From the IMG/VR virus record IMGVR_UViG_3300048447_000068, positions 1 to 42,788 of that record: a stretch of 42,788 nt of DNA. One strand, 5' to 3'. Source of the stretch: a virus. Numbering within the stretch: the first letter of the stretch is position 1; every line of letters begins with the position of its first letter. The position numbers were made by a program, and so were the translations under genes. Below are positions 4,191 through 38,297 of this stretch, one piece after another. Below the pieces are notes generated by a model. It ran no database searches, was not told where the DNA came from, and saw nothing but the letters and a program-made list of their open reading frames with translations.

Positions 4191-7100
4191 ATGGCAAACA
4201 TTCAAAGAAATTTTATCGCTGGCCGTATGAACAAAAGCCTTGACGAAAGGCTTGTTCCGAATGGTGAGTATATTGATGCGTTAAATGTAAGACTTGGTTC
4301 TACGGAAGGCTCTGAAGTAGGTTCTGTAGAAAACTCAAAGGGTAATACCATTCTTACAACATTGATGTTTGATAATATTGAATTAAGCAATAACGCCAGG
4401 TGTATTGGAGCTTTTGAGGATGGGGCTAACGAGACTATTTATTGGTTTGTACACGACCCTGCTTTTATAGCTAGTCCTACCACAAAATTAGATTTAATAG
4501 TCTCTTACAATACTAATACCGCTAACACAACTTACAACGTCATAAGCGCTAATGATGGAACTAATTTAAATACTACATTAAACTTTAGCCCTTATCATTT
4601 AATTACTGGCGTAAACCTAATAGATGATTTGTTGTTTTTTACAGACAATTTAAATCCTCCTAGATACATTAATATAAACAGGAGCTACATTGCGCCTAGT
4701 TCAGCGCCTTCTTATTTTGATGGTTTTTCTCCTGAAGCTTTATTGGTAATTAAACGACCACCTATTGCCGCTCCTACAATTCAAACATTAAATCTCCAAG
4801 GACAGCAAGACGATTTTTTAGAAGAAAGATTTATATCATTTGCGTATAGGTATAAGTATAGCGATAATCAATACTCTGCAACTTCGCAGTTTAGTGAAGA
4901 TGCGTTCACACCTTCGTCATTTAATTTTAGCTACAACAGCTATCTTAATGAGGGAATGAAAAATACTAAGAACGCTGCAATAATAACTTTCAATACAGGT
5001 AGTTCTTTAGTTACGGGCGTAGAACTTTTATTTAAAGAGTCTACAACAAACAACATTAAGGTCATTGAGTTTCTTGATAAGTCAACATTAGGATATTCTG
5101 ATAACACAGATTATACATATACGTTTGATGACAGAAAGATATTTACTCTTTTACCTGATTCAGAAATACTAAGACTATACGACAACGTACCTAAGATAGC
5201 TAAGGCTCAAACGGTCATGGGTAATAGGCTTGTATACGGAAACTATAAAGAAGGGTATGATTTAAAAGATAAGTTTAATCAAGATTTAAGATTAGAGTTT
5301 TTTGCTAGTTTAAATAGTACGGTAATAGCTACATCTGACCTGATAGATTCTACTGGACCTGGATATTACTCGATTGGGCCAACACCTTCTACAATAAATA
5401 ATTCTATAGTATTTTTTGATTTATCAAATCAAGATGGAACAACACTAGAATTAACAGCTGGGTCTAGTATAACTTTAGACTTTACGATAGTACACAGTCA
5501 GTTTACTGGAACTACTCCAGGAGCAACAACTTCAAATGTCGACATAGTATTTGACTATACTTTGCCAACATATTTTCCTAACGCATATTCTCTTGCAACA
5601 AGCACAGATTTTATTGAGAAAATAGGAACAATTGCAAATATACAAACTGTAACTGACGCTTGTAATGGAACTACTTTGACTGACCAGGTTAATTGTGCGT
5701 TGCCATCAACATTAGGTACATATACAAAAACAGCAAGCGGTATAAGTAATACCGGCGAACCTATTGCAATTATAGCATCTCCAGCAAGCAACACTATTGG
5801 TCTTCAACTAATAGCAATGAATTATGTTGATGGAGCTAATAATGCTTATGAGTTTTATGAGGTTAACAGCGCAACGGCTAGTTTTAGAAATACTGATACA
5901 GCTAGAAGTCTTCATAGCAACAGAGGTTATGAAGTTGGTATAGTATATATGGATGAATTTAACCGCTCGTCTACGGCGCTTGTAAGCCCAAATAATACGA
6001 TACAGATACCTTGTGCTAATTCAATAAATAAAAACGAACTACAGGTTACTATACCACCTCAGCAGTTAGCCCCAAGTTGGGCTACTAGATATAAGCTTGT
6101 GTTGAAACCTACAGAGACGACATACGATACTATTTACTCAAGTATTTATTTTAAAGACCCTGGAAGTAATGCGACATACTTTTTACTAGAAGGAGAGAAT
6201 GCTAACAAGGTAGAAGAAGGAGATAGATACTTTGTCAAGTCTGATAGTAATGGTCCTATACTTAGATGTGTAGAAGCTACAGTTTTAGAAAAAGAAAATA
6301 AGTCAGCAGATTTTATTACTCCTTCAAATGGTTCGGCAGTTCCTTCGGGAACATATATGAAAATTAATCCTAATAACTTTTCTACAGTTAGAGAGGCTGA
6401 CGATATAATAACACCAGGCTCTAAAACAGAACTTCAAGACACAGCAAATCAGTATCCTATATTGGCATACCCAATGAATACTGCTCCTGTAAGTCCTTCA
6501 ACAACATATACCGATTACGATGTCCCTGCTGGAAGTAGAATTGTAATCTCTATAAGACAAGAAAGATTAGGTCCAGGAAAAGGAAACGGTAAATGTGAAA
6601 GAAGAATTAGTGAACTTAATGTAGAGCTTGTATCTTCCACTACATATGATAATATGCAGGATTGGTGGAATGGAGACAACGTAGAGGCGGTATTAGAGGA
6701 TGCTGTTACTGAGGTGGGAGGAAATACAGGAAGCATATCTAATGTTTATGAGCCCGCTACAGCCGCAACTAAAACAGATATATCTACTGCCGAAGGAACA
6801 AACTACTACAAGTTTTTTAGAGACAGCGTAACTAATGAATTAGCATTATTAATTACAGGTACTGTAAGATGCGGTGGTACATTGTCAAGAGAAAAGAGAC
6901 GCTCTACCGTTACAGCTGACATACAAATATATAGAGCCGATTCTATTATAGCATTTGAAACTCAGCCTACAGATGCCCTTGATAATGTATGGTATGAAAA
7001 CCACCTTTCATTTAATGTAAGTGCAGATGGGATTCATTCTGGAAATGTGCAGACACAAACTTCAAGCCTGCCCGCAATAATTGATACAGAGTTTTCTGAT

Positions 7101-10067
7101 TGTTTTGCGTTTGGTAATGGTGTAGAAAGTTACAAGATATTAGATTCAATTGTAGGCAAGACTAAAAATATAGGCGAGCGTGTAACCTCTACCTCTAACA
7201 TGGACTACAAAGAGTCACATAGGTTTGCTGATTTAACATATAGTGGGGTTTATAACGATGAGACCAACGTAAATAAACTAAACGAGTTCAACCTAGGTCT
7301 TCTTAATTTTAAACCATTAGAAGACTCTTATGGCCCTATTCAATTACTAGACGGAAGAAAAACAGATATACTTACTTTACAAGAAGACAAGATATCTTAT
7401 GTGTTGGCTGGTAAAAATTTACTTAGTGATGCAACTGGGGGAGGAGCAGTGACTTCTGTTCCAGAAGTATTAGGCACACAAATAGCAAGATTAGAGGATT
7501 ACGGTATTAGTGAAAACCCGGAGAGTTATGCTTCATACGGACCTAACAAATATTTTACAGATGCCAAGCGTGGAGCGGTAATAAACTTAATAGGTGGAGC
7601 GTATAACAACGAACAGCTTCAGGTTATATCAGAGGCTGGTATGCGCTCGTGGTTTAGAGACCTTTTCATTGATACCTTTACTACTCAAAAAATAGGAGGG
7701 TTTGACCCCTACATGAACGAATATGTTTTACATTCTAATGTTCAATTGCCACAGCCAGTTGTAGAATGTGTAGACTGTAACTCTACAAAAAACATTACAA
7801 TAAACCCAGCAACCACCTTTACATATTGTGTAAATGTTGGAGATTTATTAGGAATAGTAGATATAGACTTTACAATTCCTACTGGAGGGTTTACTGAATT
7901 AGTGAGTGAGCTTAATGATAATATCGTCAGTGAAAGGTTGTCTGATGAAATAGTTTCGGAAAACGACAACTCAACTACTGGATATACTATAACGGCAACA
8001 TATAATGGGGTATCACATACTACAGGAACAGTATACGATAGCGGAACTTTATCCTTTAACAAGAACGATGTAAATACTGATACTGTAGAGATATCGGTAA
8101 CTCAAGACAGTACTGTTGCAAGTATTATTGACATTACAACTTCTTGTCCTGATGCTCAAACAATAACAATTATAAGTGTTGCTGTGACAAGTAATTCAGA
8201 TGCCGGAGACTTTATAACAAATGAGTTTAGATGGACTGATGGAACATTTACATCTCCAACAAAAACATATCCAAGCATTGAGTTTTCATCTGGAACAAAC
8301 GCTCCGATTGTATCGTTATACAATCAGGTAACGGGTCAACAAGGAGGTGGATTTATTCCTGGAGATGCTGCTAATGTTTCTATTATCAGCAGAAAAAGCA
8401 ATATTGATAATTTTAATTTTAATATTAATAAAAACAAATTAAAATATTTAAGAACTAATACATACTACAGCAATACAGGAACGGATATAAACGCATTGTT
8501 AACCGCCGCTACTGATGCCACGCCTATAGTTGCTCAAACAAATCCAACTCAATTTGTTGCAGACTTTATCATGCCTTCAGGGGGTAGTTTCTTGTATTTA
8601 GTTTGGGACTATAGAGAGTCAACTAGCGCTGAATTGTGTCATTCAATAACAAGTAAATCAGACGCTTGTACTGGATGTACATTTACACCCACTCCTACTC
8701 CTACTCCTACTCCTACGCCTATAACATCTTATAGATGGCTTATTGAGTCTGGCTCAGGTAGTGGAACTAGTCCATCTACTTGTCCGTTTGCGACAGTGCC
8801 ATTATATAGTTCGTCTAGCTCATTTAACACTACATTTGCTAATAGCACATTGTTCTATACAGATGCAGCTTTAACAACAATATTCCAAGGGGGAGATAAT
8901 TATTTCGGTGTGAGACAACCAAACCAAGGGTATGGAATATCTCAGGGTATATTTAGAATGACAGATTTAGGAACTGCCTCAAATATTGACACAACTGGTG
9001 TTTGTAGTTCAACACCGACTCCAACACCGACGCCTACTCCAACTCCTACTCCAACGCCTACACCTACTCCTGGCAATTCACTGCTTTTATGGAGAAATCC
9101 TTTTAGCGGACAAAATCCACCAGACGGATTTTCTAGTGCTTCAGACGCTTGTAATTTAAATGCTAATAGCACGATTGTATACTTTACTCAAGCCGTAACT
9201 GATTGGGATGATGTTGTAAATAATAATTTAGTTGTTTATCTAAATGGCGCAACAAGTGTTCCATACCAAGGGCGAAGCACATATTACAGAACGCAACAAG
9301 CCACTAATACAGGAAAAACATTTTTACTAGATAATTCAGGGGTTGTAAGCAATTACGCTGTTTGTGGAGCTACTCCTACTCCAACGCCTACTCCTACTCC
9401 AACACCGACGCCGACTCCAACTCCAACGCCTACGCCTACGCCTAGCCCTAGTGATGTTTGGCAAATAAACTATCAAGCTGGAGCTGGAGGAGGATGGAGC
9501 ACTATATCTCAGTCTTGTGGTCAAAATACATTAAATATATATGTTGGGTTAACTGGTCCAAGTGGAGCAATAACCACTCAAGCTCAATTAGATACGGCTT
9601 ACTCTAACGGAGACACAATAATTGTTATGCAAGGTGGAAATACATTTATAGGAGCTAACGCATATTACGGCATTGCTATAAGCGTTAACCCATCTGGGAC
9701 AGCTCCTGGAATGACAGTACGGATTGATGCAGCAGGAAGATTAGTTGATTTAGGAACTTCATACTACTCAAGCTGTTTACAAGAATTTACAATGACAGCT
9801 CTAAATACTTATTGGAGCAGTTATTTAGACGCTTGTAATAATGGGCCTACTTCCGCAACACAAACATATTATCACAGTGGTTCTTCTTTATGTTTGTCTT
9901 CTGCTAATACTGTATATATGGATAGCAGCAAAGCTCAAACGATAGCAGATGCTACATCAACTTTTGGTAAAGTTTGGTATCAAGGTTCCTCATGCGGAAC
10001 TGGAGCTGGTCAAGGATTAGAATTTAACCCTTCAGGTGGATATGTATACGGAATAGGAACTTGTTAA
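4191..10067 (+). CDS. Giant tail protein with Pro-Thr linkers
   Basis: A 1958-residue virion protein. The N-terminus carries DERLVPNGEYIDALNVR followed by SEVGSVENSKGN (residues 18-52), which resembles podovirus tail-stabilisation or tail-hub proteins. Residues 50-1490 are largely beta-rich. The C-terminal 460 residues are modular. Pro-Thr tracts at 1499-1510, 1608-1627 and 1728-1753 separate modules of about 90-110 residues, each ending at a Cys with a preceding pattern of Tyr-Asp, Phe-x-Gly, Tyr-Tyr/Phe-Gly. A fourth module follows without a tract. Related modules occur in the proteins at 10078 and 13845. The C-terminus is probably the exposed host-binding part, and the Pro-Thr tracts are extended linkers that may be hydroxylated and glycosylated by the enzymes encoded just downstream. 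The PT codons are synonymously varied, so the repeat is kept at protein level. Confidence 0.75.
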   Translation: MANIQRNFIAGRMNKSLDERLVPNGEYIDALNVRLGSTEGSEVGSVENSKGNTILTTLMFDNIELSNNARCIGAFEDGANETIYWFVHDPAFIASPTTKLDLIVSYNTNTANTTYNVISANDGTNLNTTLNFSPYHLITGVNLIDDLLFFTDNLNPPRYININRSYIAPSSAPSYFDGFSPEALLVIKRPPIAAPTIQTLNLQGQQDDFLEERFISFAYRYKYSDNQYSATSQFSEDAFTPSSFNFSYNSYLNEGMKNTKNAAIITFNTGSSLVTGVELLFKESTTNNIKVIEFLDKSTLGYSDNTDYTYTFDDRKIFTLLPDSEILRLYDNVPKIAKAQTVMGNRLVYGNYKEGYDLKDKFNQDLRLEFFASLNSTVIATSDLIDSTGPGYYSIGPTPSTINNSIVFFDLSNQDGTTLELTAGSSITLDFTIVHSQFTGTTPGATTSNVDIVFDYTLPTYFPNAYSLATSTDFIEKIGTIANIQTVTDACNGTTLTDQVNCALPSTLGTYTKTASGISNTGEPIAIIASPASNTIGLQLIAMNYVDGANNAYEFYEVNSATASFRNTDTARSLHSNRGYEVGIVYMDEFNRSSTALVSPNNTIQIPCANSINKNELQVTIPPQQLAPSWATRYKLVLKPTETTYDTIYSSIYFKDPGSNATYFLLEGENANKVEEGDRYFVKSDSNGPILRCVEATVLEKENKSADFITPSNGSAVPSGTYMKINPNNFSTVREADDIITPGSKTELQDTANQYPILAYPMNTAPVSPSTTYTDYDVPAGSRIVISIRQERLGPGKGNGKCERRISELNVELVSSTTYDNMQDWWNGDNVEAVLEDAVTEVGGNTGSISNVYEPATAATKTDISTAEGTNYYKFFRDSVTNELALLITGTVRCGGTLSREKRRSTVTADIQIYRADSIIAFETQPTDALDNVWYENHLSFNVSADGIHSGNVQTQTSSLPAIIDTEFSDCFAFGNGVESYKILDSIVGKTKNIGERVTSTSNMDYKESHRFADLTYSGVYNDETNVNKLNEFNLGLLNFKPLEDSYGPIQLLDGRKTDILTLQEDKISYVLAGKNLLSDATGGGAVTSVPEVLGTQIARLEDYGISENPESYASYGPNKYFTDAKRGAVINLIGGAYNNEQLQVISEAGMRSWFRDLFIDTFTTQKIGGFDPYMNEYVLHSNVQLPQPVVECVDCNSTKNITINPATTFTYCVNVGDLLGIVDIDFTIPTGGFTELVSELNDNIVSERLSDEIVSENDNSTTGYTITATYNGVSHTTGTVYDSGTLSFNKNDVNTDTVEISVTQDSTVASIIDITTSCPDAQTITIISVAVTSNSDAGDFITNEFRWTDGTFTSPTKTYPSIEFSSGTNAPIVSLYNQVTGQQGGGFIPGDAANVSIISRKSNIDNFNFNINKNKLKYLRTNTYYSNTGTDINALLTAATDATPIVAQTNPTQFVADFIMPSGGSFLYLVWDYRESTSAELCHSITSKSDACTGCTFTPTPTPTPTPTPITSYRWLIESGSGSGTSPSTCPFATVPLYSSSSSFNTTFANSTLFYTDAALTTIFQGGDNYFGVRQPNQGYGISQGIFRMTDLGTASNIDTTGVCSSTPTPTPTPTPTPTPTPTPTPGNSLLLWRNPFSGQNPPDGFSSASDACNLNANSTIVYFTQAVTDWDDVVNNNLVVYLNGATSVPYQGRSTYYRTQQATNTGKTFLLDNSGVVSNYAVCGATPTPTPTPTPTPTPTPTPTPTPTPSPSDVWQINYQAGAGGGWSTISQSCGQNTLNIYVGLTGPSGAITTQAQLDTAYSNGDTIIVMQGGNTFIGANAYYGIAISVNPSGTAPGMTVRIDAAGRLVDLGTSYYSSCLQEFTMTALNTYWSSYLDACNNGPTSATQTYYHSGSSLCLSSANTVYMDSSKAQTIADATSTFGKVWYQGSSCGTGAGQGLEFNPSGGYVYGIGTC

Positions 10068-10077
10068 ATATAAAAAA

Positions 10078-10875
10078 ATGGCAACACTAGGAACATATTA
10101 TTTTGATACAGCGAGTTTCGCAAATGCAACAACTATTTATGATGATGCTGATTTAACAGTGGTATCTGCCAATGGTTTTTATTCTGACAACTCTATAGTC
10201 AGAGAACAGGTAAGCGGAGTATTATTTGCTGGGCAATCTTGTACAGTACCTACGCCTACGCCTACGCCTACGCCCACTCCTACACCTACGCCCACTCCAA
10301 CACCTAGTCCGACACCTGGGCCAACGCCTACTCCAACGCCTACTCCAACGCCAGGGCCAACGCCAGGGCCAACGCCTTCGCCTAGTCCATCACCTAGTCC
10401 ATCACCTGTTCCTAATCAGTATCAGATACAAAACTGTAGTAGTGGGCTTCAAGAAAACGTATCACTACCACAAGCGGTTAGTGTTGGCTCTTCTATTCAA
10501 TGGCAGTCTGTATGTTGGGAAGTTATGGGAGCGCCTACGGGAACAACTCAGGCTATATCGCCACAAGGTTATTTTACCAATTGTACAGATTGTCAGCCTA
10601 CGCCTAGTCCTAGCCCTACGCCATCGCCTAGTCCGACTCCCACGCCTCTGCCGTGTTATGCTAGTCAGTTAAAGTGGAATCCACTTGCTGTTTGTAGCGG
10701 TGCGTCTGGAACTTATTATATAGACTTTAGTAATTTCTGTACGGCAACTAAACTATACACTGATGCACTTTGTACGCAGTTAGCTCCGAGCGGATACTAC
10801 ACAACTTTTGGTTTTCCAGGAGAATATAGATTTTGGGATGGAACTGGATTTACGACATTTTGCTCTAACTGCTAA
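10078..10875 (+). CDS. Pro-Thr/Pro-Ser-rich modular virion protein
   Basis: A 265-residue protein starting 10 bases after the giant tail gene in another frame. It opens with a short module (GTYYFDTASFANATTIYDDA to AGQSC, residues 5-55). Then come a long TP/SP/GP tract (about 58-112), a Cys-rich module with QNC, VCWEV and ISPQGYFTNCTDC (113-172), a second SP/TP tract (174-193), and a last module echoing the first (GTYYIDFSNFCTATKLYTDA to FTTFCSNC). The duplication within the protein and the match to modules at 4191 and 13845 mark it as part of one adhesin-like family. There is no signal peptide. It likely assembles at the tail tip as an accessory fibre or adhesin. It could be a detached C-terminal piece of the preceding gene, but it has its own ATG. 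Confidence 0.7.
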   Translation: MATLGTYYFDTASFANATTIYDDADLTVVSANGFYSDNSIVREQVSGVLFAGQSCTVPTPTPTPTPTPTPTPTPTPSPTPGPTPTPTPTPTPGPTPGPTPSPSPSPSPSPVPNQYQIQNCSSGLQENVSLPQAVSVGSSIQWQSVCWEVMGAPTGTTQAISPQGYFTNCTDCQPTPSPSPTPSPSPTPTPLPCYASQLKWNPLAVCSGASGTYYIDFSNFCTATKLYTDALCTQLAPSGYYTTFGFPGEYRFWDGTGFTTFCSNC

Positions 10876-10907
10876 TAATTTAGTACCTTGTACTTAAATT
10901 AAATTAA

Positions 10908-12050
10908 ATGAAAGAAATACACGACTTTTTAACACAAGAGGAGTGTGATGGTTTGATTAAGTTAATAAATAAAAACCATGTCCCCTCCACTGTTGTTTCT
11001 CAAGGAGATGAGTTTAGCGTACAAGATAAAAGCAGAACTTCTAGTACATCTAATTTAGACCATTCCAATACTTTAGTAAAAAGCATACATGAAAAAATAT
11101 CTAAATATTTAGGACTAGATATTTCAAACGGAGAAAACCTTCAAGGGCAACTCTACGAGCCTGGACAATATTTTAAACCACATCATGATTTTTTTAGCGG
11201 AGCGGCATATGATATGCATTGCTTGGATAAAGGAAACAGAACCCATACCTTAATGATTTATCTTAATGATGACTTTGAAGGTGGTGGCACTAACTTTCCT
11301 AGAATGAATACCATATTACAGCCAAAGAAAGGAAAAGCAGTTACTTGGCAAAATATGATAAATGGTAGAACTCAAGAAAATACATTGCACGAGGGGATGC
11401 CTGTTACTAGCGGTAAAAAATATATTATTACATCTTGGTGGAGAGAGGGTAAGCCACAGTCGCAAAAAATACAAAGAGTAGAAAGTAGACCGCAATTGCC
11501 TCAATTAACCGAAAAGGGATTTGATGTTGTCAGAGTTCCAGAAGATACATGGAATTTAATACAAGATACTTACCAGCTTTTGAAAGACAAGGTTGAGCCA
11601 GAGGTGTTTGAAGGTAAAGAAGACTTTATAAAAGGAGACAGTGAGCTTATATCATACGACCACATACCACATATAAGAAATTTAATACACAACCAGCTCC
11701 TGCCTATACATAGAGACTTTGCGGGTGTAGATATAGAACCATCAGCTATGTATGGAATAAGGTCTTACTTGAGAGGCTCATCGTTAGTCGAACACACAGA
11801 CAAGGTGGAAACACACCATGTATCGTCATCAATACTTGTAGATAAAGATTTAAGATGTGGATGTCAACATAAAGATAATGGAGACGATTGGGCTTTTGAT
11901 ATACAGGGGTATGATGGAGACTGGTATAAAGTATACCTAGAGCCAGGTGATATGATAGTATATGAATCCGCTCTCTGTGTTCACGCAAGAAAAGAGCCTT
12001 TTCAAGGAACATACTACAGAAACTTTTTTGCTCATTATAAAATTATATAA
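10908..12050 (+). CDS. Tandem 2OG-Fe(II) dioxygenase, prolyl-4-hydroxylase-like
   Basis: A 380-residue protein with two predicted iron/2-oxoglutarate oxygenase halves. The first half has YEPGQYFKPHHD (metal ligands H92 and D94), a strand EGGGTNF, the distal His in TLHEGMPV (H161) and the 2OG-binding Lys in SGKKYIITSWWRE (K170/K171). This is the classic prolyl 4-hydroxylase layout. The second half has GIRSYLRGSSLVEHTDKVETHH (H296, D298), LEPGDMIVYESALCVHARK (H359) and YYRNFFAHY (R371), like a little-studied algal/marine dioxygenase family. It would hydroxylate peptidyl proline in the cytoplasm. It sits between Pro-Thr-rich virion genes and overlaps the radical SAM gene by one base (TAATG). The fold call is firm; the Pro-Thr substrate is inferred. 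Other possible substrates include host proteins. Confidence 0.85.
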   Translation: MKEIHDFLTQEECDGLIKLINKNHVPSTVVSQGDEFSVQDKSRTSSTSNLDHSNTLVKSIHEKISKYLGLDISNGENLQGQLYEPGQYFKPHHDFFSGAAYDMHCLDKGNRTHTLMIYLNDDFEGGGTNFPRMNTILQPKKGKAVTWQNMINGRTQENTLHEGMPVTSGKKYIITSWWREGKPQSQKIQRVESRPQLPQLTEKGFDVVRVPEDTWNLIQDTYQLLKDKVEPEVFEGKEDFIKGDSELISYDHIPHIRNLIHNQLLPIHRDFAGVDIEPSAMYGIRSYLRGSSLVEHTDKVETHHVSSSILVDKDLRCGCQHKDNGDDWAFDIQGYDGDWYKVYLEPGDMIVYESALCVHARKEPFQGTYYRNFFAHYKII

Positions 12051-12958
12051 TGATAAACTTTATACAGATAGACCCTAATGGCTTGTGTAATGCAGGGTGT
12101 TGGTTTTGTCCTGTGTCTTTAGTTGGCAATCCTAAAGAACATATAAATCAGATGCCTCCTGAACTCTATGAAAATATAATAAAACAAATACACGAACTAA
12201 AAGGAGATTTAATAAATCCAAACTTGCATTTTGTTTACGCATCACATTACAATGAGGTATTACTTTATAGGTATTTTGAACAGATGTTACAGACACTCCA
12301 AAAGTACAGCCTTACTTTGTGCGTACTAACAAATGGAGTTCCTCTTACTCCAAACAAGGTAGACCTTATAAATAAATATCCAGGTGTAGTATCGCAGATT
12401 GCTATCAACGCTCCTGTTTACGAGAAAAGATTGTTTTCAAAAAGAACAGGAATGAAAGAGGTTTTGTTTGATAAGTTAATCTCTAATATAAAATATGCAG
12501 AAGAAAATTTACACAATCCTAATGTTTTGCTTCTGCAAATAAATGGTATTAACGAAAGGTCTAACATAATTAAAAAAGAAAAATTTCCAGAGCTAGAGCC
12601 AGATGAATTTAAACACCAGGTAAATATAGCTAAACTTATTTTTCCAAACATAAGGATAACGGAGCAGTGGAATCTTATAGATAGAGCTGGTCTAATGGAT
12701 GATGTAATGGAAAGTAAATTGCCTAGCGGAAATGTAATAGGGTGTTCTACTAAAAGAGATACAGAGTGGCTTCATGTTAGTCCAAAGGGAGAAGTATTTT
12801 TGTGTTGTAATGACTATCATATGGATTATACTTTTGGAGATTTGAACACATCGTCATTAAAAGAAATATGGATGAGCGATAAGCGTAAAAGAGTTTTACA
12901 GACTGCTTTTAAAAGTATCTGCACATCTTGTTCATCAGCAATATTTGAAAATGCATAA
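12050..12958 (+). CDS. Radical SAM enzyme with SPASM-like C-terminus
   Basis: A 302-residue protein with CNAGCWFC (C13, C17, C20), the CX3CX2C loop that binds the [4Fe-4S] cluster and S-adenosylmethionine. A TIM-barrel-like region follows (LHFVYASHYNEV, LTLCVLTNGVPL, VVSQIAINAP). The C-terminus has CSTKRDTEWLHVSPKGEVFLCC, FGDLNTSSLKEIW and CTSC, the layout of a SPASM or twitch auxiliary-cluster domain. Such enzymes usually modify peptides or small molecules. It is coupled to the oxygenase before it (one-base overlap) and the glycosyltransferase after it (8-base overlap). This suggests a role in the same modification route, either altering the peptide or making a sugar or cofactor. The exact substrate cannot be read. 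Confidence 0.85.
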   Translation: MINFIQIDPNGLCNAGCWFCPVSLVGNPKEHINQMPPELYENIIKQIHELKGDLINPNLHFVYASHYNEVLLYRYFEQMLQTLQKYSLTLCVLTNGVPLTPNKVDLINKYPGVVSQIAINAPVYEKRLFSKRTGMKEVLFDKLISNIKYAEENLHNPNVLLLQINGINERSNIIKKEKFPELEPDEFKHQVNIAKLIFPNIRITEQWNLIDRAGLMDDVMESKLPSGNVIGCSTKRDTEWLHVSPKGEVFLCCNDYHMDYTFGDLNTSSLKEIWMSDKRKRVLQTAFKSICTSCSSAIFENA

Positions 12959-13820
12959 GAGTATAATTGTCAGCATTGCATCGTATAAAGATGTAGATAT
13001 AGTAAATACTATTGTAGATTTATACAAGAGAGCAGAGTTTCCATCTCGTGTTTTTGTAGGATTATTTTTACAAGATACGCCAGAAGAAATATCAAGGATA
13101 TGTGGTTACTTTTCAAACTTTCCGTATAAAGAAAATCTTAAAATTAAAACCATATTATTTGAAGAGGCTAAAGGTTGTGGGTGGGCTCGCAATATTATAT
13201 TAAAGGAGCTGTATGACAATGAGGATTATTTTATGTGCGTAGATTCTCATTCTAGGTTTTTAAAAAAATGGGATAGTGTTTATATAGAAGCTTATAAGCG
13301 CGCTCCTGCAAACTCAGTAATAAGCGCTTTTCCGCAATCATTTGATTTTAATGAAACATACGAGCAATATACCAGGAGAAGTATAACTACGATATATACT
13401 CCAAATGCTTTGCCCTGGACAAATAGTTTTAGGCATCCCCATTGTCAGAAACCAACCACAGAGGCATATGAAAAAGTAATGTCTATCTCTGGCGGTAATA
13501 TTTTTGGAGACACAAGGTTGGCAAAAGCAATTACTTTAGACGACTATAGCTTTGTTCACAATAAAGAGCAAGAGATATATTCGCTTCTTATATACTTATA
13601 TGGTTTAGATATATATGCAATACCTCAAAATATAGTGTGGCATAAGTATATTGTTCAAGATTCTTACAGAGATATATTTAGCCCTAACCAAATAAAATAT
13701 AACACAGATTTTTTAAGTTTATTAAAAATAAAAGAAACCCACAGAACAGTAAAAGAATGGGTTGAGCTGATACAAAGGGATTGTGATGCGTGTGAAAAGA
13801 CAAAGCAATTAAATTCGTAA
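12951..13820 (+). CDS. GlcNAc-transferase-like glycosyltransferase (PF11397/GT60-like)
   Basis: The ATG at 12951 gives 289 residues; the upstream in-frame codon at 12945 is TTG. Motifs characteristic of the Skp1-type GlcNAc transferase family appear in order: IVSIASYKD (6-14), FPSRVFVGLFLQ (30-41), AKGCGWARN (73-81), and EDYFMCVDSHSRFLKKWD (91-108) with a DSH metal/nucleotide-sugar motif. These are followed by SISGGNIFGD and a later NKEQEIYSLLIYLYGLDIYAIP then VWHKY. Known members include Dictyostelium Gnt1, which adds GlcNAc to hydroxyproline after a prolyl hydroxylase has acted. Here it is translationally coupled to a prolyl-hydroxylase-like enzyme and lies beside Pro-Thr-rich virion genes. 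The donor sugar and acceptor are inferred. There is no signal peptide or membrane segment. Confidence 0.8.
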   Translation: MHKSIIVSIASYKDVDIVNTIVDLYKRAEFPSRVFVGLFLQDTPEEISRICGYFSNFPYKENLKIKTILFEEAKGCGWARNIILKELYDNEDYFMCVDSHSRFLKKWDSVYIEAYKRAPANSVISAFPQSFDFNETYEQYTRRSITTIYTPNALPWTNSFRHPHCQKPTTEAYEKVMSISGGNIFGDTRLAKAITLDDYSFVHNKEQEIYSLLIYLYGLDIYAIPQNIVWHKYIVQDSYRDIFSPNQIKYNTDFLSLLKIKETHRTVKEWVELIQRDCDACEKTKQLNS

Positions 13821-13844: not shown

Positions 13845-15707
13845 ATGAGCTTTTACCATAGAGTGCAAAATTGCGTTCAGACTGATGTTTTTGAGAATGT
13901 AGCTTTTGATTCTTTACAGACTCCTGGACAAACTTACGGGATGATTGTCCCTACTACTCCAGGCTTAGTTGCTGTAAACTGCTGGAGGGTAGATGGAGGT
14001 CCAATTAGTAACGGTGTTGTTCCTATATTTTTACCTAATGGGGATTATGGTATTAACGGATGTAATTTATGTACAGGGGCTCCCGCTCCTACACCTCCGC
14101 CTTCAGTTTATACATGGTACTTTAATGCGGTTCAAGGTAATGGTTCTTTTGTAAAACCTACCGCTTGTGTCAATGCTCCAGTAAGAGTATATTCAGAAGC
14201 TTCATCTTTATCACAAGTAACTTGTGGCACAACTAAGTTTTATCTTGACGCAAGCCTCAATCAGCCTTTCATTGGAAGCAATCAGTATTATATTGGTGTA
14301 AACTCATCAGGCCCTGCAACAGGAGAAGCTTCATTCTTAATACAAAATGACGGAACAGTTACAAGTAAATTTGATTGTTCAGGATTTAATTTATGTGGAG
14401 GAGGCCCTACTCCGACTCCAACACCTACACCTACACCTACACCTACACCTACTCCCGGTCCTACACCAACGCCTACGCCTACGCCTACGCCTATACCCAC
14501 ATCTCCGGATTATTGTTTGAGTGGTACAAATGCTGTTACTTTTCAGTCTATCGGTGGTATTAACTCTTATGTGTTTGGTGGCAACTATGGTTTATACGGA
14601 ACAGGAACTGGTGTTTTTGTATTAACAGGAGTTCCTTCAACACATCCTATTGCCATACACAACTTTGGTAAAACAGGTCAGATAAGCTATACAGGAACTA
14701 CGAGCGCAGGATTGAAAACGGGACTTGATGGAAATACCTATGAGTATTTTTATGGAGATGTAACTATAACCGCAACTGGAGATTATGGTACTACTAGCTA
14801 CGAGTGTTACTATCACGGATATATGGGTGGTCAAAACAACCTACAGTTTGATGATGTAACTTGCCCAAACTTACAGCCTCCAGTAATACCTCCACAGGGA
14901 GACCCAGATAAACAATATACTTTAAGCTATAGCGATAGTGTTAAAGGGTGGCCCTCATTCTATTCCTACTTTTCCGACTGGATGATAGGTATGAACAACT
15001 ATTTTTATTCGTTAAAGGCTGGTAATTTATACAGACATAATACTAATCCTTTACGCAATAACTACTATAACGTACAGTATAACTCTACTCTTACCAGCGT
15101 ATTTAATGAAATGCCTTTAGAGAATAAATTATTTAAAACCATAAATTTAGAATCGGATGCTACCTGGAGTATAACATTAGACAGTGATATACAGACTGGA
15201 GCTAGTATAGATAGCACTTACTTTGAGAAAAAAGAAGGAGCGTGGTTTGCTTTTGTAAGAAACAATGGTACGCAACCAGCTGGTTCAGATGAATATGTTA
15301 TGCGCTCGGCAAGTGGTATAGGAAGAAGTTCTTCTGTAGCTACTGGTGGGACTAGCACAACTATAAACTTTTCTACTAATCCACTCATAGAGATAGGAAG
15401 TGGTTTAAGTGTTGGCGACATTATATATTACGCTCCACCTCCGTACAGCGCTATAGAAATGGTTGGCAAGGTTACCTCAATAAATATAGATTTACAGAAC
15501 GGAATCAACAATATAGTTATAGACAACAGTATCAGCGGAGCTGTTGCATTGCCTATACAAGACGGGTTTATAATGTATATTAAAAACCAAGAAGCAGAAT
15601 CTAATGGAGTACTAGGTCATTACTGTGAGTTCACAATAACAAACACAGACAGCACGCCTACTGAGTTATTCGCAGTAGAGTCTCAAGTAATGAAAAGCTA
15701 TCCCTAA
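13845..15707 (+). CDS. Modular tail protein with Pro-Thr linker
   Basis: A 620-residue virion protein. Residues 1-80 form a Cys-rich module (VQNC, VNCWRVDGG, LPNGDYGINGCNLC) matching the middle module of the 10078 protein. Residues 90-185 form a module ending in Cys (FYLDASLNQPFIGSNQYYIGV), like those of the giant tail protein. A Pro-Thr tract spans about 188-220. Residues about 222-345 form a beta domain with HPIAIHNFGKTGQISYTGT and YECYYHGYMGG, which resembles a cupredoxin-like fold with possible C/H/M copper ligands. The C-terminal 270 residues (GWPSFYSYFSDWMIGMNNYF, FEKKEGAWFAFVR) look like a virion attachment domain seen in Bacteroidota phage tails. A tail-tip adhesin that anchors by its C-terminus is the best reading. 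It may be a target of the upstream modification enzymes. Confidence 0.7.
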   Translation: MSFYHRVQNCVQTDVFENVAFDSLQTPGQTYGMIVPTTPGLVAVNCWRVDGGPISNGVVPIFLPNGDYGINGCNLCTGAPAPTPPPSVYTWYFNAVQGNGSFVKPTACVNAPVRVYSEASSLSQVTCGTTKFYLDASLNQPFIGSNQYYIGVNSSGPATGEASFLIQNDGTVTSKFDCSGFNLCGGGPTPTPTPTPTPTPTPTPGPTPTPTPTPTPIPTSPDYCLSGTNAVTFQSIGGINSYVFGGNYGLYGTGTGVFVLTGVPSTHPIAIHNFGKTGQISYTGTTSAGLKTGLDGNTYEYFYGDVTITATGDYGTTSYECYYHGYMGGQNNLQFDDVTCPNLQPPVIPPQGDPDKQYTLSYSDSVKGWPSFYSYFSDWMIGMNNYFYSLKAGNLYRHNTNPLRNNYYNVQYNSTLTSVFNEMPLENKLFKTINLESDATWSITLDSDIQTGASIDSTYFEKKEGAWFAFVRNNGTQPAGSDEYVMRSASGIGRSSSVATGGTSTTINFSTNPLIEIGSGLSVGDIIYYAPPPYSAIEMVGKVTSINIDLQNGINNIVIDNSISGAVALPIQDGFIMYIKNQEAESNGVLGHYCEFTITNTDSTPTELFAVESQVMKSYP

Positions 15708-15728: not shown

Positions 15729-16139
15729 ATGAAATTAAATATTAAATCACTTGAAGAGTCTGACTATGAGCAGATTTTAGTAGGTTGGTGGAAAGATTGG
15801 AAATGGGATGCTCCTGTTAAAGATTTTTTACCAGATGAAGGCAAAGGTGGTTTAATGGTTTATGATGACAAAACACCTGTTTGCGCAGGATTTATATATA
15901 TGACAAATTCAAAAGTAGCTTGGGTGGATTGGATTATATCTAACAAAGATTATACTAATAAGGCTAATAGAAAAGCCGCTTTATCTTTGTTGGTTGACGC
16001 TCTTACTAGAGTAGCGCAAAGTGCAGGAAATAAATTCACATACGCTCTTATAAAACACGATGGCCTTATTAAAACATATGAAGAGCTGGGTTATATTCAG
16101 GGAGATAGTTACAATAAAGAAATGATAAAAATATTATAG
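15729..16139 (+). CDS. GNAT-like acetyltransferase fold protein
   Basis: A 136-residue protein with a GNAT-like plan: an N-terminal strand-helix (LNIKSLEESDYEQILVGWWKDW), central strands (GGLMVYDDKTPVCAGFIYMTN, VAWVDWIISNKDY), a helix with NRKAALSLLVDALTRVAQ in the acetyl-CoA-binding region, and a closing FTYALIKHDGLIKTYEELGYI. The Q/RxxGxG/A pyrophosphate loop is not clear, so it may be a degenerate or structural member. It lies between a tail gene and the ejection-protein genes. Similar small GNAT proteins occur in structural clusters of marine phages; their role is unknown. Confidence 0.6.
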   Translation: MKLNIKSLEESDYEQILVGWWKDWKWDAPVKDFLPDEGKGGLMVYDDKTPVCAGFIYMTNSKVAWVDWIISNKDYTNKANRKAALSLLVDALTRVAQSAGNKFTYALIKHDGLIKTYEELGYIQGDSYNKEMIKIL

Positions 16140-18822: not shown

Positions 18823-21800
18823 ATGTTTGAAATAGAAGAATTATTTGACCTGACAATAGAAGGGGCTTTTGAAAACCCTGAAGAATTTAGTGCTTTTGCT
18901 TCTCAAGTAACGCCTGAAGAATTATATTCTGTAATGATAGAAGGAGCTTTTGAAAGTCCTAAACAATTACAGGCATTTTTAAAAAAAAAAGAAGATATGG
19001 TTTCCATATCGGAAGATGGTTCATTGGTGCAACCTACAATTACTCAGCCAGCTGAAACAGAAGTTAGTGTCGTTGAAGACACTATTTCTGAAACAAAAGA
19101 TTCTACTGTTGAATTTGCAGACATAGAGCTTGAAAATCCAGAACTAAAAATGAATGTGCTAGACCTAGCACAACAATTGCCTACCTTAAATTATAATGAG
19201 TTAAATGAAGAAGGTCAACAGTATGTAACTGAAACCGCGTCTAAGTATGGTTTAACAGAAGACCAAATACTAGCTCAAGCAAAAACTAAAAAAGCAGCTA
19301 TAAATCAAGCTGGTATTACAGACTTTTTATATAACGCATACAAGAAAGGTGATGCTAGATTAGGAGAAGGTATATTAAGTATACCAACCGCGCTATATGA
19401 AACAGCAGCTTTAATATCTGACCCTATTAACAGAGCGCTCGGCAGAGAAGAAACCAACCTTGAAGCTTTTGAAGAGGCTATAGGAACAAGAAAAGCATTA
19501 GACGCTCTTATAGATGAACAAGAGTATCGTCAAAAACAAGCAGAAGTATTTAAAAAAGAAAGAAAGATTGAAGGCGGCATCGCTGAAAACTTTTTTCAAG
19601 ACGGGAATATATCTGATGGATTTTTATTGCTTGGAGAATCTATTGCTGAAAGTGCACCTGTAAGTGTAGGAATTATGGCTGCATCAGGTTCAGGTGTGGG
19701 GCTTATTCCGTTGGCGGCTGGAGCAACTACAGTTATGACAGGGCCAGAATTACGAGCCCAAAAAGAACAGTTCCCTGAACAAAGTGATTTTACTAATGTG
19801 ATGAAAGCTATTGGAATGGCTGGAGCAGAAATGGTATTTAGTACCATAAGTCAAGGTACATTAGGTAAAGTATATAGAGATATAATATTTAGACAAGGAG
19901 CAGAAGCAGGAAGAAAGACATTTAAAAAAGGTCTCATATCAATGTATGAAACTGCTATTAAGAAAACAGGTCCTATTGCAGCTGGACTAGGAGAAGGAAT
20001 AGAAGAGTCTGCTACACAAATAACTCAAAATCTTATAGACGGAAGACCTGCATATGAAGGTGTTCCAGATGCGTTCTTAGCTGGTGTTGGAAGTGGTGGT
20101 GTGTATGGCGCTCCTATAAGTGGAATAAAAGGTATTCAAGCCGTTAATAAAGGTATTGCAAAAAGAAAAATTGCTAAAAAAATAAAACCTACCGAGTTTA
20201 GTGATATAGCTCAAGTTTTCCAATCAGACCAAACAACAGACTTACAGCTTGATTTAGTTAATACTAAAAGAGCAGATGAGGTTTTGGTTTCAGATTTGAA
20301 ACGTAAAGTTGAAACAGGCGAACTCACGCAGGAGGAAGCTGATAAGATACAGCAAAACTTTTTTGATACAGCTACAGGAGATGTAAAGTTAAAACCACTT
20401 AACCTTACAACAGAACAACAAACAGAAGCGGTAGACCTATTAAAAAGAAAAAGAATTTTAGAAGCTGAGATTAAAGAAATAGATGATTCTAGTTTAAGTG
20501 TAAACAAACAAAAAGAATTAAATGACATTAATCAGCAGCTTATAGATATTGTTGAATCCAAAAAACCAGAAGAAGATGCCGTTCAAGAGCCAAGCCCAGA
20601 GGAGGTGGATGTACAAGAACAAGCCAGAGATGGCGAAGAGGTGGGAGTCGGAGACACCACCGGGGACATTACCACAGAGATTACACCCGAAGCAGTTGAA
20701 ACTACCAAAGTTCCAGAAGAAGAAGTTGCCGAGCTTACTGAGGAGCAGAAAGATGAGGTAAGTGATTTAGAATATTCACTTGGTTTAAAGCCACAGGAAA
20801 CTAAGCAGAAAAAAGAATCTCCTGTTGATATATTTTTTGGTGAAACAATAGAAGAAACAACAGAGTCTTTATCTGATAATCTTGTTGTAAATAAAAAAGA
20901 CGAGACGATAGATAAAACTCCAGAGCAAGTTAAAAGAATTAATTCTGTAACTAAGATAGCTACCACAGCTGCAAAAGCAATATCTAAAATATTACCAAAC
21001 ACTAGAATTGTATTGCACGATTCTACTACAGAGTTCCAACAATATGTTACAACTCCAGAAGCAGAAGCAGAGTTCAATCCAGCTGACAATGTAATTCATG
21101 TAGACCTTTCTAAAGCTACTGATATAACTGTGCCTCATGAAATATTTCATGCGGTCTTTTTAAGCAAAGTCAAAACAGATAATAAAGCTACAAGACAAGC
21201 AGATTTACTTGTAAAAAAATTACAAGCAGCGGACTTACCAATCGAAGTAAAAGAAAGATTAGATTCTTTTGTAGAAAGATATACAGACTCTCCAAGCACG
21301 CAAAATGAAGAGAAGCTTGCAGAGCTTATGGGTATACTAGCGGAAGACTACAGCAAGGTAAATGATGTTGAGCAAAACATGATTAGAAACTTCTTGAAGC
21401 AGTTGGCTAGATTGTTAGGGCTTAGACAGCTTGAGAATACTATAAATACAGACAATGAAGTTTTAAATCTTTTAAATACTTTGGCTGAACGGGTTGTAAC
21501 TGGGGAAGAAATAACCGAGACAGACATTGAGATACTAGAAGAAACATCATTAGATACGGAACAAGAGCAGGGTAGTGGCGGACAGGTTGGAACTTTTGAT
21601 ATTACTCCAGGGCCTAGACAAAGAAAAGCACCTGGCATTGAAACAGACACTAGGGGGTATGCCTCTTTAATACAAGAAGTAGATTTAAAAGATTTTCAAG
21701 GACAGAGCTTTGTAACTAATATGTATGACTTTACAAGTGCAGGTCCAACAGAGATAGCTCCAGGGATTATTTTACAATTAGATGGAGGTAAAAGTTACGT

Positions 21801-24800
21801 TCCAATGATGATGGAGCGACAAGGATTAAAACTGGGAGACAAATCAAATCTTGCTGCATTTAATTCTAAAGAGAATGCAGAATCTTTTGCAAGAAATGCG
21901 CAAGGGTCAGGCTCTAGTTTGTTTGCGCCTCATGTAGGAACTAAAGAAGGGTCTTGGCAATTTCAACAAAATCTATTAGAGCAATTAACAGACGCAGCTT
22001 TAAATAACAACATTCTTACAAATAAAGAATTAATAAACACTTTTAACGAAGGTTTAAAAAGTAAAGACGGCATAAAAGCTTTTAATATTTTTAAGAAAAA
22101 ATTAGGTAAGGATATAAAAAATCTAAATTCTTTTATTGATAATCCTACAAGCTTAATCGAGCTTCTTGATATCAACAATAATTACTCTCCTGATTTAAGA
22201 AAGATATTGAATGATAAATTGTCCGCTAATAAAAAATATCAAGAGCGTATAGGTGTAAAAAATAAACTAGATTTTGTAAGTAAATTTGAAGACCCTTTGA
22301 ATAAAGGTAGTCAAGGAGGTGATTTAGTTGGTCTAATAGAGTTTGATAACAATACGTTTGAAATATCTAAACCTAAAAAAGGAGATGTAGACTATCATCC
22401 ATCCTTTGCTTATACCATAAAAGCAAATATAAATGGTATTTACCAGCCTACTGACTTTTATCAATCAAATGATGCTACAGAAACCTATGCTAAATACAAC
22501 AAAAAAGGAAAGACCGTATCTGAAAAAGCAAAGGTAGGAGAGAAAAAATTTAGAACATCCAACGTAAGTAGCAGTGCAGGAGCTATTCCTAAAGTAGGAA
22601 CGGTTACACCTAGACAAAGACTAGCTCCAATAGAAGGAGATGCTATAACAATCGAAGGTGTAGTAGAGCAAGGAAGAGCACAAGGTTTTTCTGATACAGC
22701 TATCAAAGCAGTATTAATAGGGCGTGGCTTCAAAGCCTCTGATATTAATACAGCGTTGGAGGAAGCGCTGAGAAAAGGAGAAACATTACCCGCAGTATTT
22801 AGAACAATACCAGACGGGTTAAAGTTTTTTAGAAGTCTACGCTCCAAAATCAACAGGTTTAAAAATACACCTAATAGAAAAACAAAAGAGAAGCCTAGTA
22901 ATGCAGAAGTCAGACAAAGAGCTTTAGAGATTCTTAAAAATACGGATGTATATAAAGGATTACCTGAGAGCCAACAGAATGAATTGGTTTTAGCTATAGA
23001 TAAATTTGTAGGGACTACGGCTAATAGAACAATACAGCGTGAAATAACTCGTATTAAGAACGCAGTAAGAGGATTTAAAAAAGGTGTTAGAGATTTAAGA
23101 GCGGCTCAGATTGAGCTTAAAAACTTTATTCGTAACGCAATGCCTAAGTCTCAAGGCTATTCTGATACAGATATAGCAAATGCAATAGCCATAGTAACTG
23201 GTATCAAATCAGTAAATGATTTGCCTGCCGCTGTAGAAAAAGTTTTAAAGAAAGTTGATGCGCAGCGCGAGCGTATAAGAAAGCGTACAATCAAAGACAT
23301 TGTTACCTTTATAAATAAAAAGGCTAAGGTTCGTAAAACAAGAAGCAACAAGTCAAGAAGCGCTGGACTCGATGCACAAGGGCAACAGTTCTTTAAAAAT
23401 GCTCAAAAAATATTAAAAGCTCTAACTTCTGAAAATCCTACAGAAGCTATACAAACAATAGAAAATACATTAGACCAAGACCTTATTAATGAAGCCACAC
23501 AAAAAGAGTTAAGAGGAGAAAAACTTACATCTAAAGAATCTAATTTGCTTGATTTAGCTTTGGCTTATGATATGTTTGGTGATTTAAACCAGGTCTCGCT
23601 AGAAGATGCACAGGCATTATTAGAAGAGTTGAAACAAGCTAGAGCTGAATCAATTCAGAGATTAAATGAAAAGCGAGCGACTGAATCTCAAAGAATCCAG
23701 AAGCTAAAAGATGAAGGTAAAGAACAGATTGAAACTGAACAAAGCTTCATGTTTGAAACGGATGAGAAAGGAAATAAAGTTTTAAAAGATTTAGAGCAAG
23801 ATAGAAAAGTTTTATGGGATAATTTCAACAAGAATAAAACTTGGGAGGGATTAAGAAAGGTTTTAAAGACATATGACTTTACAAATGTACCAGGTATAAC
23901 AGATTATTTTAGAAAAAGATTAGCTCATTTAGGGTCTCTTGTTAAAATACTAGATAATTATACTGACGGTTTTTTTACTAAAAATATTTATGACCGATTA
24001 AATATAATGAGTGAAAACTCATTAAGGGGTTACTATACACAACAAGATATATTAGACGGATTAGCTAATTCTATAGAGGGTATTGATGGTGGATACAGAC
24101 AGATAAATGAGATATTGTTTGGTGGTGCAAAACAATTAACAGTAAAAGGTAAGCAAAGAATATATTCTCCTAATGAGCTTCTTCGTATCTATGCATTGAG
24201 CCTTAATGAAGTTCAAAGAAATAAGCTTATAAAACAAGGGTTTACTGAATCAGTTCTTTCTGAGATTGAATCAGAGCTAGGCCCTGAGTTAGTTGAGTTT
24301 GCAAATAAAGTGGTTGATTATCTGAGTACAGATTACTTTGAAGGTGTTAACGATGTATTCTCTGAAGTTAATGATGTAAATCTTGGATATGTAGAAAACT
24401 ATTTTCCCACTAAGACTAGGTCTGATGCTGCTACTGATGCAGATTTAATTGCTAATGGAGATTTTAGCGCTGTGTTTACAGCAGAAAATTCACCTGCACT
24501 AAGAGAAAGAACAGATGTAACTGGAGAGGTTGAGGTAGATAAAGGAGATACATTTACTTCTGTATTGAACAATCATATTCAGCAGATGGAAAGATTCAAA
24601 GCTTATGCTCAAGGGGTAAAAGATATGAATGCGATATTCAATACTCCAAGTATAAAAGCTTTGATGGAAACAACACAGACAAAAGATTTAATAAGACAAG
24701 CAATTCTATTTGATGTAAATCCTAATTATGGATTAGAAGGACTTAAAACTACATTTATTTCAACACTGTTGTCTAAGTATACTTCCTTTGCTTTATCATT

Positions 24801-37244: not shown

Positions 37245-38297
37245 TTAAAATTTATTAAAGTGTGTAACATCATTCTCTGTAAACCATCCATCACACCCTG
37301 TGCAATGGTAGTTGTTGAATCCATCGTACTCTAGGTCGTGGAAACAATCAATGCATATCGGAGACTCATCCTCCAATGGCACATCATCAAAGCTAAACTG
37401 ATTGCACGTTGGCAATACCTCTTCCTCTCTTTCGAATAGGTACGAGCGTAATGGTGCTTGACTATATGACTCGTGGTATACCTCCCCCTCGCTCGTATGA
37501 GTTCGGTTGAAGTATATCCAACAAGTGTATCGCTTACCCTTGGCAAGTATCTCTGTTTGCTTTCGCTCGTAGAAGTTGGGATGCCCCTCAAGGCTATCTA
37601 AGTCCCTTAGCGTGTCGTTTGATACACTAAAGATATCTACCTCTACGTTGTACCCCTTACCCTCTCTCTCGATGAGATATGGAAGTCCCTTGACAACAAG
37701 AGGATACTTGTTAGCAGTTACACCACTAGCAATGTGGTTTGAAGTTCTAAGGTAGCGTTGGTAGTTGGAGTACCCTTTCTTTAGAGTTCCGTATACTGCA
37801 ACAAGATTGTCTTGCAGTACGTTGGTCTTGGAGTACCACACACCATCTCTATGAGTGTAGAGATGCTTGTTGTAAATCTGAAACGAGCGAGTGCGAGTGT
37901 TGATTGTAACAAACCTACAGTCGTACTTGGCTAGTGATTTCTTCCAAGTCTGTCTCGGCACAAGTCCTAGCTTGTTGGCTAGTACCTTACTATCACACAT
38001 CTTGTCATTGCCAAGTCCCTTGATAGTTCCGTTCATCATCAGCAGTTCATCAGAGTTGTTGCCACATACAAATGGATGCGTGTTCTCTCTGTTTACTGCA
38101 CCAACAGTTGCATACCTAAAGTGTGCAATGAATGGTCTGTCTGTGTCTAGGAGTTTGTACTCCTTAGATTTGTGGTAGGATACCTTATAAGTATCTAACC
38201 AAACAATGCCTAGTCCGTGAGGATTAATCCTCGCTGAGTTCTTGAGGATGTCCATTGGAATGGCATTGGTCTTTTGTTTGATAATAATAATACACAT
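37245..38297 (-). CDS. GATase-II / gamma-glutamylcyclotransferase / zinc-ribbon fusion
   Basis: A 350-residue three-part protein. Residues 1-160 form a class II glutamine amidotransferase (Ntn hydrolase): nucleophile C2 directly after Met, HFRYATVGAVNRENTHPF (59-76) and LLMMNGTIKG (85-94). Residues 165-285 form a gamma-glutamylcyclotransferase/AIG2-like domain: VAVYGTLKKGYSNY (167-179) and LDSLEGHPNFYERK (233-246), whose Glu in LEG is the catalytic acid. Residues 315-335 hold a CxxC-x13-CxxC zinc ribbon. The first part would release or transfer ammonia from glutamine-like amides; the second would cleave gamma-glutamyl amines. With the amidoligase at 40639 it fits a glutamyl-ligation and removal system. 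It is driven by its own promoter. Confidence 0.85.
   Translation of the reverse strand: MCIIIIKQKTNAIPMDILKNSARINPHGLGIVWLDTYKVSYHKSKEYKLLDTDRPFIAHFRYATVGAVNRENTHPFVCGNNSDELLMMNGTIKGLGNDKMCDSKVLANKLGLVPRQTWKKSLAKYDCRFVTINTRTRSFQIYNKHLYTHRDGVWYSKTNVLQDNLVAVYGTLKKGYSNYQRYLRTSNHIASGVTANKYPLVVKGLPYLIEREGKGYNVEVDIFSVSNDTLRDLDSLEGHPNFYERKQTEILAKGKRYTCWIYFNRTHTSEGEVYHESYSQAPLRSYLFEREEEVLPTCNQFSFDDVPLEDESPICIDCFHDLEYDGFNNYHCTGCDGWFTENDVTHFNKF

Follow-up and report, generated by a model that had tools for sequence, protein, structure and literature searches.

What is the function of three overlapping enzyme genes that are set among the tail genes of a phage whose tail proteins carry long tracts of threonine and proline? 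The question is raised by the IMG/VR virus contig IMGVR_UViG_3300048447_000068 (42.8 kb; its whole stretch of 42,788 nt is referred to here as the window), the source of which is a crAss-like marine phage. The three genes encode an oxygenase with a predicted prolyl 4-hydroxylase (P4H) domain, a radical SAM enzyme and a GT60-type glycosyltransferase, and the observations described below make it quite probable that this cassette is a virion-protein modification system that acts on the X-Pro tracts of tail proteins. That the Pro-tracts of the virion are modified is something we consider likely; for hydroxyproline as the acceptor of the sugar in the window, the chances are about even.

Enzymes of the Cassette

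The cassette consists of the open reading frames (ORFs) 10908-12050 (380 residues), 12050-12958 (302 residues) and 12945/12951-13820, which have a stem-like tail gene on one side, a muzzle gene on the other and Thr-Pro tracts on both flanks. As a first-pass annotation of this DNA had described, the first two ORFs overlap by 1 base (12050) and the last two by 8 bases when the glycosyltransferase starts at the ATG at 12951; the three genes are translationally coupled. The cassettes of sister loci also sit between stem and muzzle genes, and the conservation of this arrangement in other viruses shows that it is not a product of chance. The encoded domains are as follows:

10908..11456, + strand: P4H domain (residues 1-183), a 2-oxoglutarate (2OG)/Fe(II) oxygenase, assigned by PF13640, phmmer, Foldseek and H92/D94/H161/K171
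11499..12050, + strand: OX2, a second domain that resembles 2OG/Fe(II) oxygenases and is fused to P4H, assigned by a phage 2OG oxygenase match, H296/D298/H359 and the structure model
12050..12958, + strand: radical SAM/SPASM enzyme, assigned by PF04055, PF13186 and the motif CNAGCWFC
12951..13820, + strand: PF11397/GT60-type glycosyltransferase with a DSH metal motif; an in-frame TTG lies upstream at 12945

The profile searches that had been proposed with the first-pass annotation returned the families it had named, i.e. 2OG-FeII_Oxy_3 (PF13640, 5.3e-16) for the first domain, Radical_SAM (PF04055, 1.3e-9) with SPASM (PF13186, 4e-12) for the second protein, and GlcNAc (PF11397, 5.7e-35; 121.8 bits against a curated cut-off of 21) for the third. 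The first domain of the 380-residue ORF is a predicted prolyl 4-hydroxylase by further measures as well. It matches the P4H of Bacillus anthracis in a phmmer search (2.4e-27), and the AlphaFold model of the ORF (pLDDT 84.9) has the same enzyme as its top Foldseek match (5hv0, 2e-15; TM-score ~0.7 when normalised by the target) and also matches an algal P4H that was crystallised with (Ser-Pro)5 (3gze, 1.6e-14). The attributes of the class, which are the HxD...H iron triad, the 2OG-binding lysine and the P4H fold, are all present, and the residues singled out in the annotation proved to be invariant (H92, D94, H161 and K171) or nearly so (K170) in 22 homologues. The remainder of the protein, OX2, is probably a second hydroxylase: residues ~198-380 match a phage 2OG oxygenase at 32% identity, include H296, a near-invariant D298 and H359, and form a second beta-rich domain in the model. 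OX2 occurs unfused in other phages and stands alone in loci L004, L005, L016 and L017, in two of which (L004 and L016) it is upstream of the radical SAM and glycosyltransferase genes.

The radical SAM/SPASM enzyme has invariant cysteines at C13, C17 and C20 (the CxxxCxxC motif, here CNAGCWFC) and at C232, C252, C253, C291 and C294, and among solved structures it is closest to BtrN, an aminocyclitol dehydrogenase (2e-10). It accompanies GT60 in 11/11 loci and has been seen only with GT60; P4H is retained in 10 of these 11. The glycosyltransferase matches phrog_24687 (glycosyltransferase, 3e-22) and contains the motifs IASYKD, GCGWAR and DSH where the annotation had placed them; D100-S101-H102, which we take to be the Asp-X-His metal motif of this GT-A group, is invariant. 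The GT60 family includes the enzyme that acts on the hydroxyproline of Skp1 as well as the polypeptide alpha-GlcNAc transferases of Trypanosoma cruzi and Dictyostelium, which act on Thr/Ser (PMC8724618, PMC6939170), and since it contains both kinds of transferase, family membership leaves hydroxyproline and threonine both eligible as the acceptor in the window.

Virion Proteins with Proline-Rich Tracts

Three genes for tract proteins flank the cassette, two upstream and one downstream, as had been noted in the annotation:

4191..10067, + strand: stem-like virion structural protein, 1958 residues (phrog_14478, 1.9e-231), with TP tracts at 8685-8720, 9012-9074 and 9372-9452
10078..10875, + strand: tract protein of 265 residues, immediately upstream of P4H, with tracts at 10252-10407 (52 residues) and 10600-10647
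13845..15707, + strand: muzzle-like virion protein, 620 residues (PF25729 crAss_MUZ_C, 3.3e-16), with a 30-residue tract at 14403-14492

The Pro-Thr tracts of the window reach 52 residues. Homologues of the stem-like protein are found among the structural proteins of Cellulophaga and Flavobacterium phages. In Cellulophaga phage phi18:3 the homologues of the stem and of the muzzle (the latter gp115) are annotated as structural from tandem mass spectrometry proteomics, so that two of the tract proteins have homologues in virions. No Gly-X-Y repeats occur in the tracts seen.

Co-occurrence of Enzymes and Tracts

The loci detected in IMG/VR scans were collapsed at 97% identity to 186 clusters, of which 86 have P4H. 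The P4H-OX2 enzyme is present in ~90 dereplicated virus loci. A gene with a Pro-rich tract lies immediately upstream of P4H-OX2 in 63 of the 70 loci that could be evaluated, and the gene immediately downstream belongs to a known cassette family in 59/74. Among the complete intervals of the stem lineage, tracts are present at all P4H/OX2 loci (46/46) and all transferase-only loci (3/3), and no tract is present at 35 of the 37 loci that lack the enzymes. The contig of locus L178 ends immediately upstream of P4H; in L138 the tract filter missed a Gln-Pro tract.

When a distant P4H clade was used in a separate scan, it led to viruses that have no homologue of the stem protein and represent a second virion type. 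Upstream of their tract gene is a protein of ~1735 residues, unrelated to the stem, whose end resembles the distal subunits of long tail fibres. Pro-rich tracts adjoin P4H in 10/10 dereplicated members of this type, several of which also carry GT60 or HPAT-like genes (HPAT, hydroxyproline O-arabinosyltransferase); by contrast, among phage 2OG oxygenases that are more distantly related, only 2/47 clusters have tracts. Here, too, the outcome is favourable to the first-pass annotation, in that P4H and Pro-rich tracts are found together in nearly all homologous loci and again in the second virion type. The annotation had also named, as a finding that would speak against it, enzymes kept without tract proteins, and here the outcome is divided: nearly all loci do have tracts, but four loci with P4H and a transferase (L171, L175, L182 and L257, the last on a contig of 63 kb) have none that is visible.

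The Exchangeable Transferase and the Composition of the Tracts

The slot that is filled in the window by the radical SAM and GT60 genes is occupied in sister loci by GT32 (PF04488), by O-FucT (PF10250) with a carbamoyltransferase, by a DegT aminotransferase with a GNAT protein, or by a family of 275-residue proteins. At least 23 changes of module can be placed on the P4H tree, and the closest case is that of loci L102 and L103, which have near-identical P4H domains and different transferases. Members of the 275-residue family match PF23452 (HPAT) in 14 of 20 cases (best 4.1e-12), these matches having come from a scan of the 20 members where a single sequence gave no Pfam match. When four members were rescanned against the curated cut-off of 23.9 bits, L261 (27.9) and L250 (24.9) were above it, L283 was below it and L269 had no match; a structure model built from only 5 sequences (pLDDT 49) was too poor for comparison with the GT-A fold. 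Judged by its profile matches, the 275-residue module is a predicted distant homologue of the HPATs. Given the PF11397 and PF23452 assignments, two unrelated transferase families, each with eukaryotic members that act on hydroxyproline, alternate beside the same P4H; the HPAT-like alternative had not been foreseen, and it strengthens the case for hydroxyproline glycosylation. The O-FucT, carbamoyltransferase, DegT aminotransferase, GNAT and GT32 modules all fit a chemistry of sugars. At loci L009/L256 and L257, DegT aminotransferase and GNAT genes adjoin the HPAT-like and P4H genes, which suggests an amino-sugar donor made by the phage itself. No relatives of P4H-OX2 or of the HPAT-like proteins were found in 84,980 prokaryote genomes with the patterns used.

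The composition of the tracts varies with the module. Proline accounts for about half of the tract at P4H loci, and X varies among T, V, A, S and G (TP, VP, AP, SP, TPP). In GT60 loci that have P4H, Thr/Ser make up 0.87 of the non-Pro residues (median; range 0.69-0.96). Ala/Val account for about one-third (median) in HPAT loci, and Pro-Pro steps are found in GT32 loci. VPVPVP tracts in which Thr+Ser make up only ~0.2-0.3 of the non-Pro residues occur in some HPAT loci, and because Ser/Thr are so few there, proline is the sole plentiful acceptor. The 265-residue tract protein is nearly identical outside of its tract in the window and in L004, L007 and L089, yet among these four the tract reads (TP)n where the module is GT60 and (TPP)n where it is HPAT or GT32. 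The Pro-Thr combination that the annotation had proposed as the target is not supported as such: the common denominator is proline in many contexts (VP, AP, SP, TPP). A possible mucin-like glycosylation of Thr in phages is represented by L069, L075, L094, L197, L239 and L231, which combine a PF11397 transferase with Thr-rich tracts; the records tested, of 27-185 kb, lack PF13640. In loci with GT60 and no P4H the ratio of Thr to Pro is 0.86-1.22, against a median of 0.54.

A Proposed Pathway and Its Alternatives

The co-encoding that would be expected of a system for hydroxyproline O-glycosylation, namely of a P4H, a hydroxyproline-type transferase and X-Pro-rich proteins, is found in these loci. 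From the families, catalytic residues, gene order, tract association, module swapping and virion homologues, we infer the catalysis, substrate, acceptor residue, sugar addition and biological role as follows. In the host cytoplasm, P4H would hydroxylate prolines in the X-Pro tracts of the newly made stem-like, 265-residue and muzzle-like proteins, and the transferase encoded just downstream would then add a sugar to the tract. The acceptor would be hydroxyproline in the case of an HPAT-like module and hydroxyproline and/or a neighbouring Thr in the case of GT60, as in the window. The radical SAM enzyme may well modify either the added sugar or the peptide, and OX2 would probably act as a second hydroxylase. 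The products would be stiff, glycosylated stalks, extensin- or mucin-like, that separate small globular domains at the tail tip and might provide protease protection, spacing, or a masking or tuning of receptor binding. On the wider proposal, that in at least two virion architectures marine phages practise a modular hydroxyproline O-glycosylation of their own tails, in which a constant P4H is combined with a swappable GT60, HPAT-like, GT32 or O-FucT transferase matched to the grammar of the tract, we find the arguments evenly balanced.

Several observations weigh against this reading. Enzyme presence is a single change on the tree of the stem proteins, so the co-occurrence within the stem lineage amounts to one evolutionary event, and a Fisher test on its loci (4e-22) was rejected as independent proof on these grounds. 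A test of module against tract wording in independent pairs (5 pairs) gave the same direction or ties for the main measures and was not significant; the match between tract and module could also arise when the two are transferred together. The GT60-only loci with Thr-rich tracts (L069, L075 and L094) indicate that the glycosyltransferase does not always depend on P4H, and the four loci without a visible tract count on the same side. For a P4H of the algal virus PBCV-1 hydroxyproline has been studied, but an amino-acid analysis of the virions is cited as negative for it (ref. 162 as given in PMC7019647).

The most serious competitor, to which we give somewhat less than an even chance, is that the GT60 of the window glycosylates Thr/Ser of the tracts directly, in the manner of mucins, while the hydroxyproline made by P4H separately stiffens a polyproline-II rod and receives no sugar. 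The mixed specificity of the GT60 family, the Thr-rich tracts of GT60 loci where PF13640 is missing, and the high share of Thr+Ser that persists in the GT60 loci with P4H are all in keeping with it, but the retention of P4H beside nearly every radical SAM-GT60 pair is not, and since the same P4H also goes with HPAT modules whose neighbouring tracts are poor in Ser/Thr, proline must matter there. The pathway of hydroxylation followed by sugar addition that was put forward in the first-pass annotation thus succeeded in its genomic predictions, while its choice of hydroxyproline as the acceptor in the window is rivalled by Thr as an equally serious candidate.

It is unlikely, in our estimation, that P4H and the transferase act elsewhere (on a host protein, lipopolysaccharide, DNA or another virion protein) and that the tracts are unrelated low-complexity linkers in a hypervariable locus. 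The tract-less loci and the single change on the stem tree would agree with such a situation, as would the P4H genes of Erwinia phage Y3 and Salmonella phage Sen-NF, which lie away from the tails and beside asparagine synthase genes; set against these are the tract gene immediately upstream in most loci, the repetition of the association in a second virion type and the shift of tract wording with the transferase. P4H is known in collagen-like contexts and phage glycosyltransferases are known to alter host surface sugars, from which one could imagine that P4H only stabilises a fold and that the transferase and the radical SAM enzyme make a sugar for the host surface, for superinfection exclusion or receptor masking. 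We consider this very improbable in view of the absence of Gly-X-Y repeats from the tracts seen, the coupling of the transferase gene to P4H between virion genes, and the alternation in one slot of two transferase families with hydroxyproline-acting members.

Relation to Known Systems and Other Genes

The preferred reading, modification of the X-Pro tracts of tail proteins, has partial counterparts elsewhere. The Skp1 pathway of Dictyostelium and Toxoplasma employs a P4H (PhyA) and then a PF11397/GT60 enzyme (Gnt1), two families that are both present in the window, and is cytosolic, but it modifies one proline of Skp1, whereas the window belongs to a bacterial virus and has long X-Pro virion tracts, a fused OX2 and a radical SAM enzyme. 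With the extensins of plants and algae (P4H, HPAT of GT95, SGT1 of GT96), the phage loci share an algal-type P4H of the kind that acts on Ser-Pro repeats, and X-Pro or X-Pro-Pro targets; HPAT-family homologues stand beside P4H in sister loci but not in the window. In plants the enzymes are type II membrane proteins of the Golgi (PMC8012813), and the phage HPAT-like proteins are distant from them and may be as similar to GT96 as to GT95. The initiation of mucin glycosylation in T. cruzi, by a GT60 polypeptide alpha-GlcNAc transferase with Thr/Pro-rich targets, is the closest analogue of the phage loci without P4H; unlike the window, it has no P4H step. The collagen prolyl hydroxylase vCPH of PBCV-1 is a virus-encoded P4H of the same fold (5c5t), but from an algal virus, and we know of no glycosyltransferase that is coupled to it.

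Among cultured phages, which were searched for a full cassette, Microcystis phage Mel-JY01 has P4H without a nearby Pro-rich tract, none that is strong being present in the 50 kb read. The isolated cyanophage S-SCSM1 (L296) has one island (4261-12552) of 2OG oxygenases, O-FucT, an OX2 homologue, a carbamoyltransferase and GDP-fucose genes; these OX2, O-FucT and carbamoyltransferase genes are related to those of the cassettes, but its P4H is only distantly so, and there is no strong Pro-rich tract in the 12.5-kb stretch examined. In Xanthomonas phage XacN1 (L294; 384 kb), a PF11397-type transferase adjoins a carbamoyltransferase (6001-9718).

Elsewhere in the window, a GNAT-like gene immediately 3' of the muzzle gene (15729-16139), which is kept in most relatives, in Cellulophaga phi18:3 and in MW202828 (where the homologue is annotated as an N-terminal acetyltransferase), could be another modifier of virion proteins. 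An ORF of 2356 residues (18823-25893), partly conserved among relatives and without a PHROG match, may encode an ejected protein or a large virion protein. A 350-residue protein (37245-38297) matches PHROGs of the gamma-glutamyl cyclotransferase and glutamine amidotransferase type.

No description of hydroxyproline glycosylation by a phage was found in a search of open-access literature. To our knowledge, none is known in bacteria or their viruses, and a modular phage system would be the first. Viral P4H genes are reported to be abundant in marine viromes and in Baltic Sea water rank with the commonest auxiliary genes of all, but their use to the viruses has been called cryptic (PMC9301287). 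The locus described here offers the viral P4H a concrete and testable substrate and pathway, and a modular hydroxyproline system, if it exists, would explain part of the abundance of these genes in marine viruses. If the proposed pathway is true, it would account for the long X-Pro tracts in marine phage tails, provide small soluble enzymes for the production of hydroxyproline glycoproteins in bacteria, and extend hydroxyproline glycosylation of the plant and amoeba kind to the viruses of bacteria.

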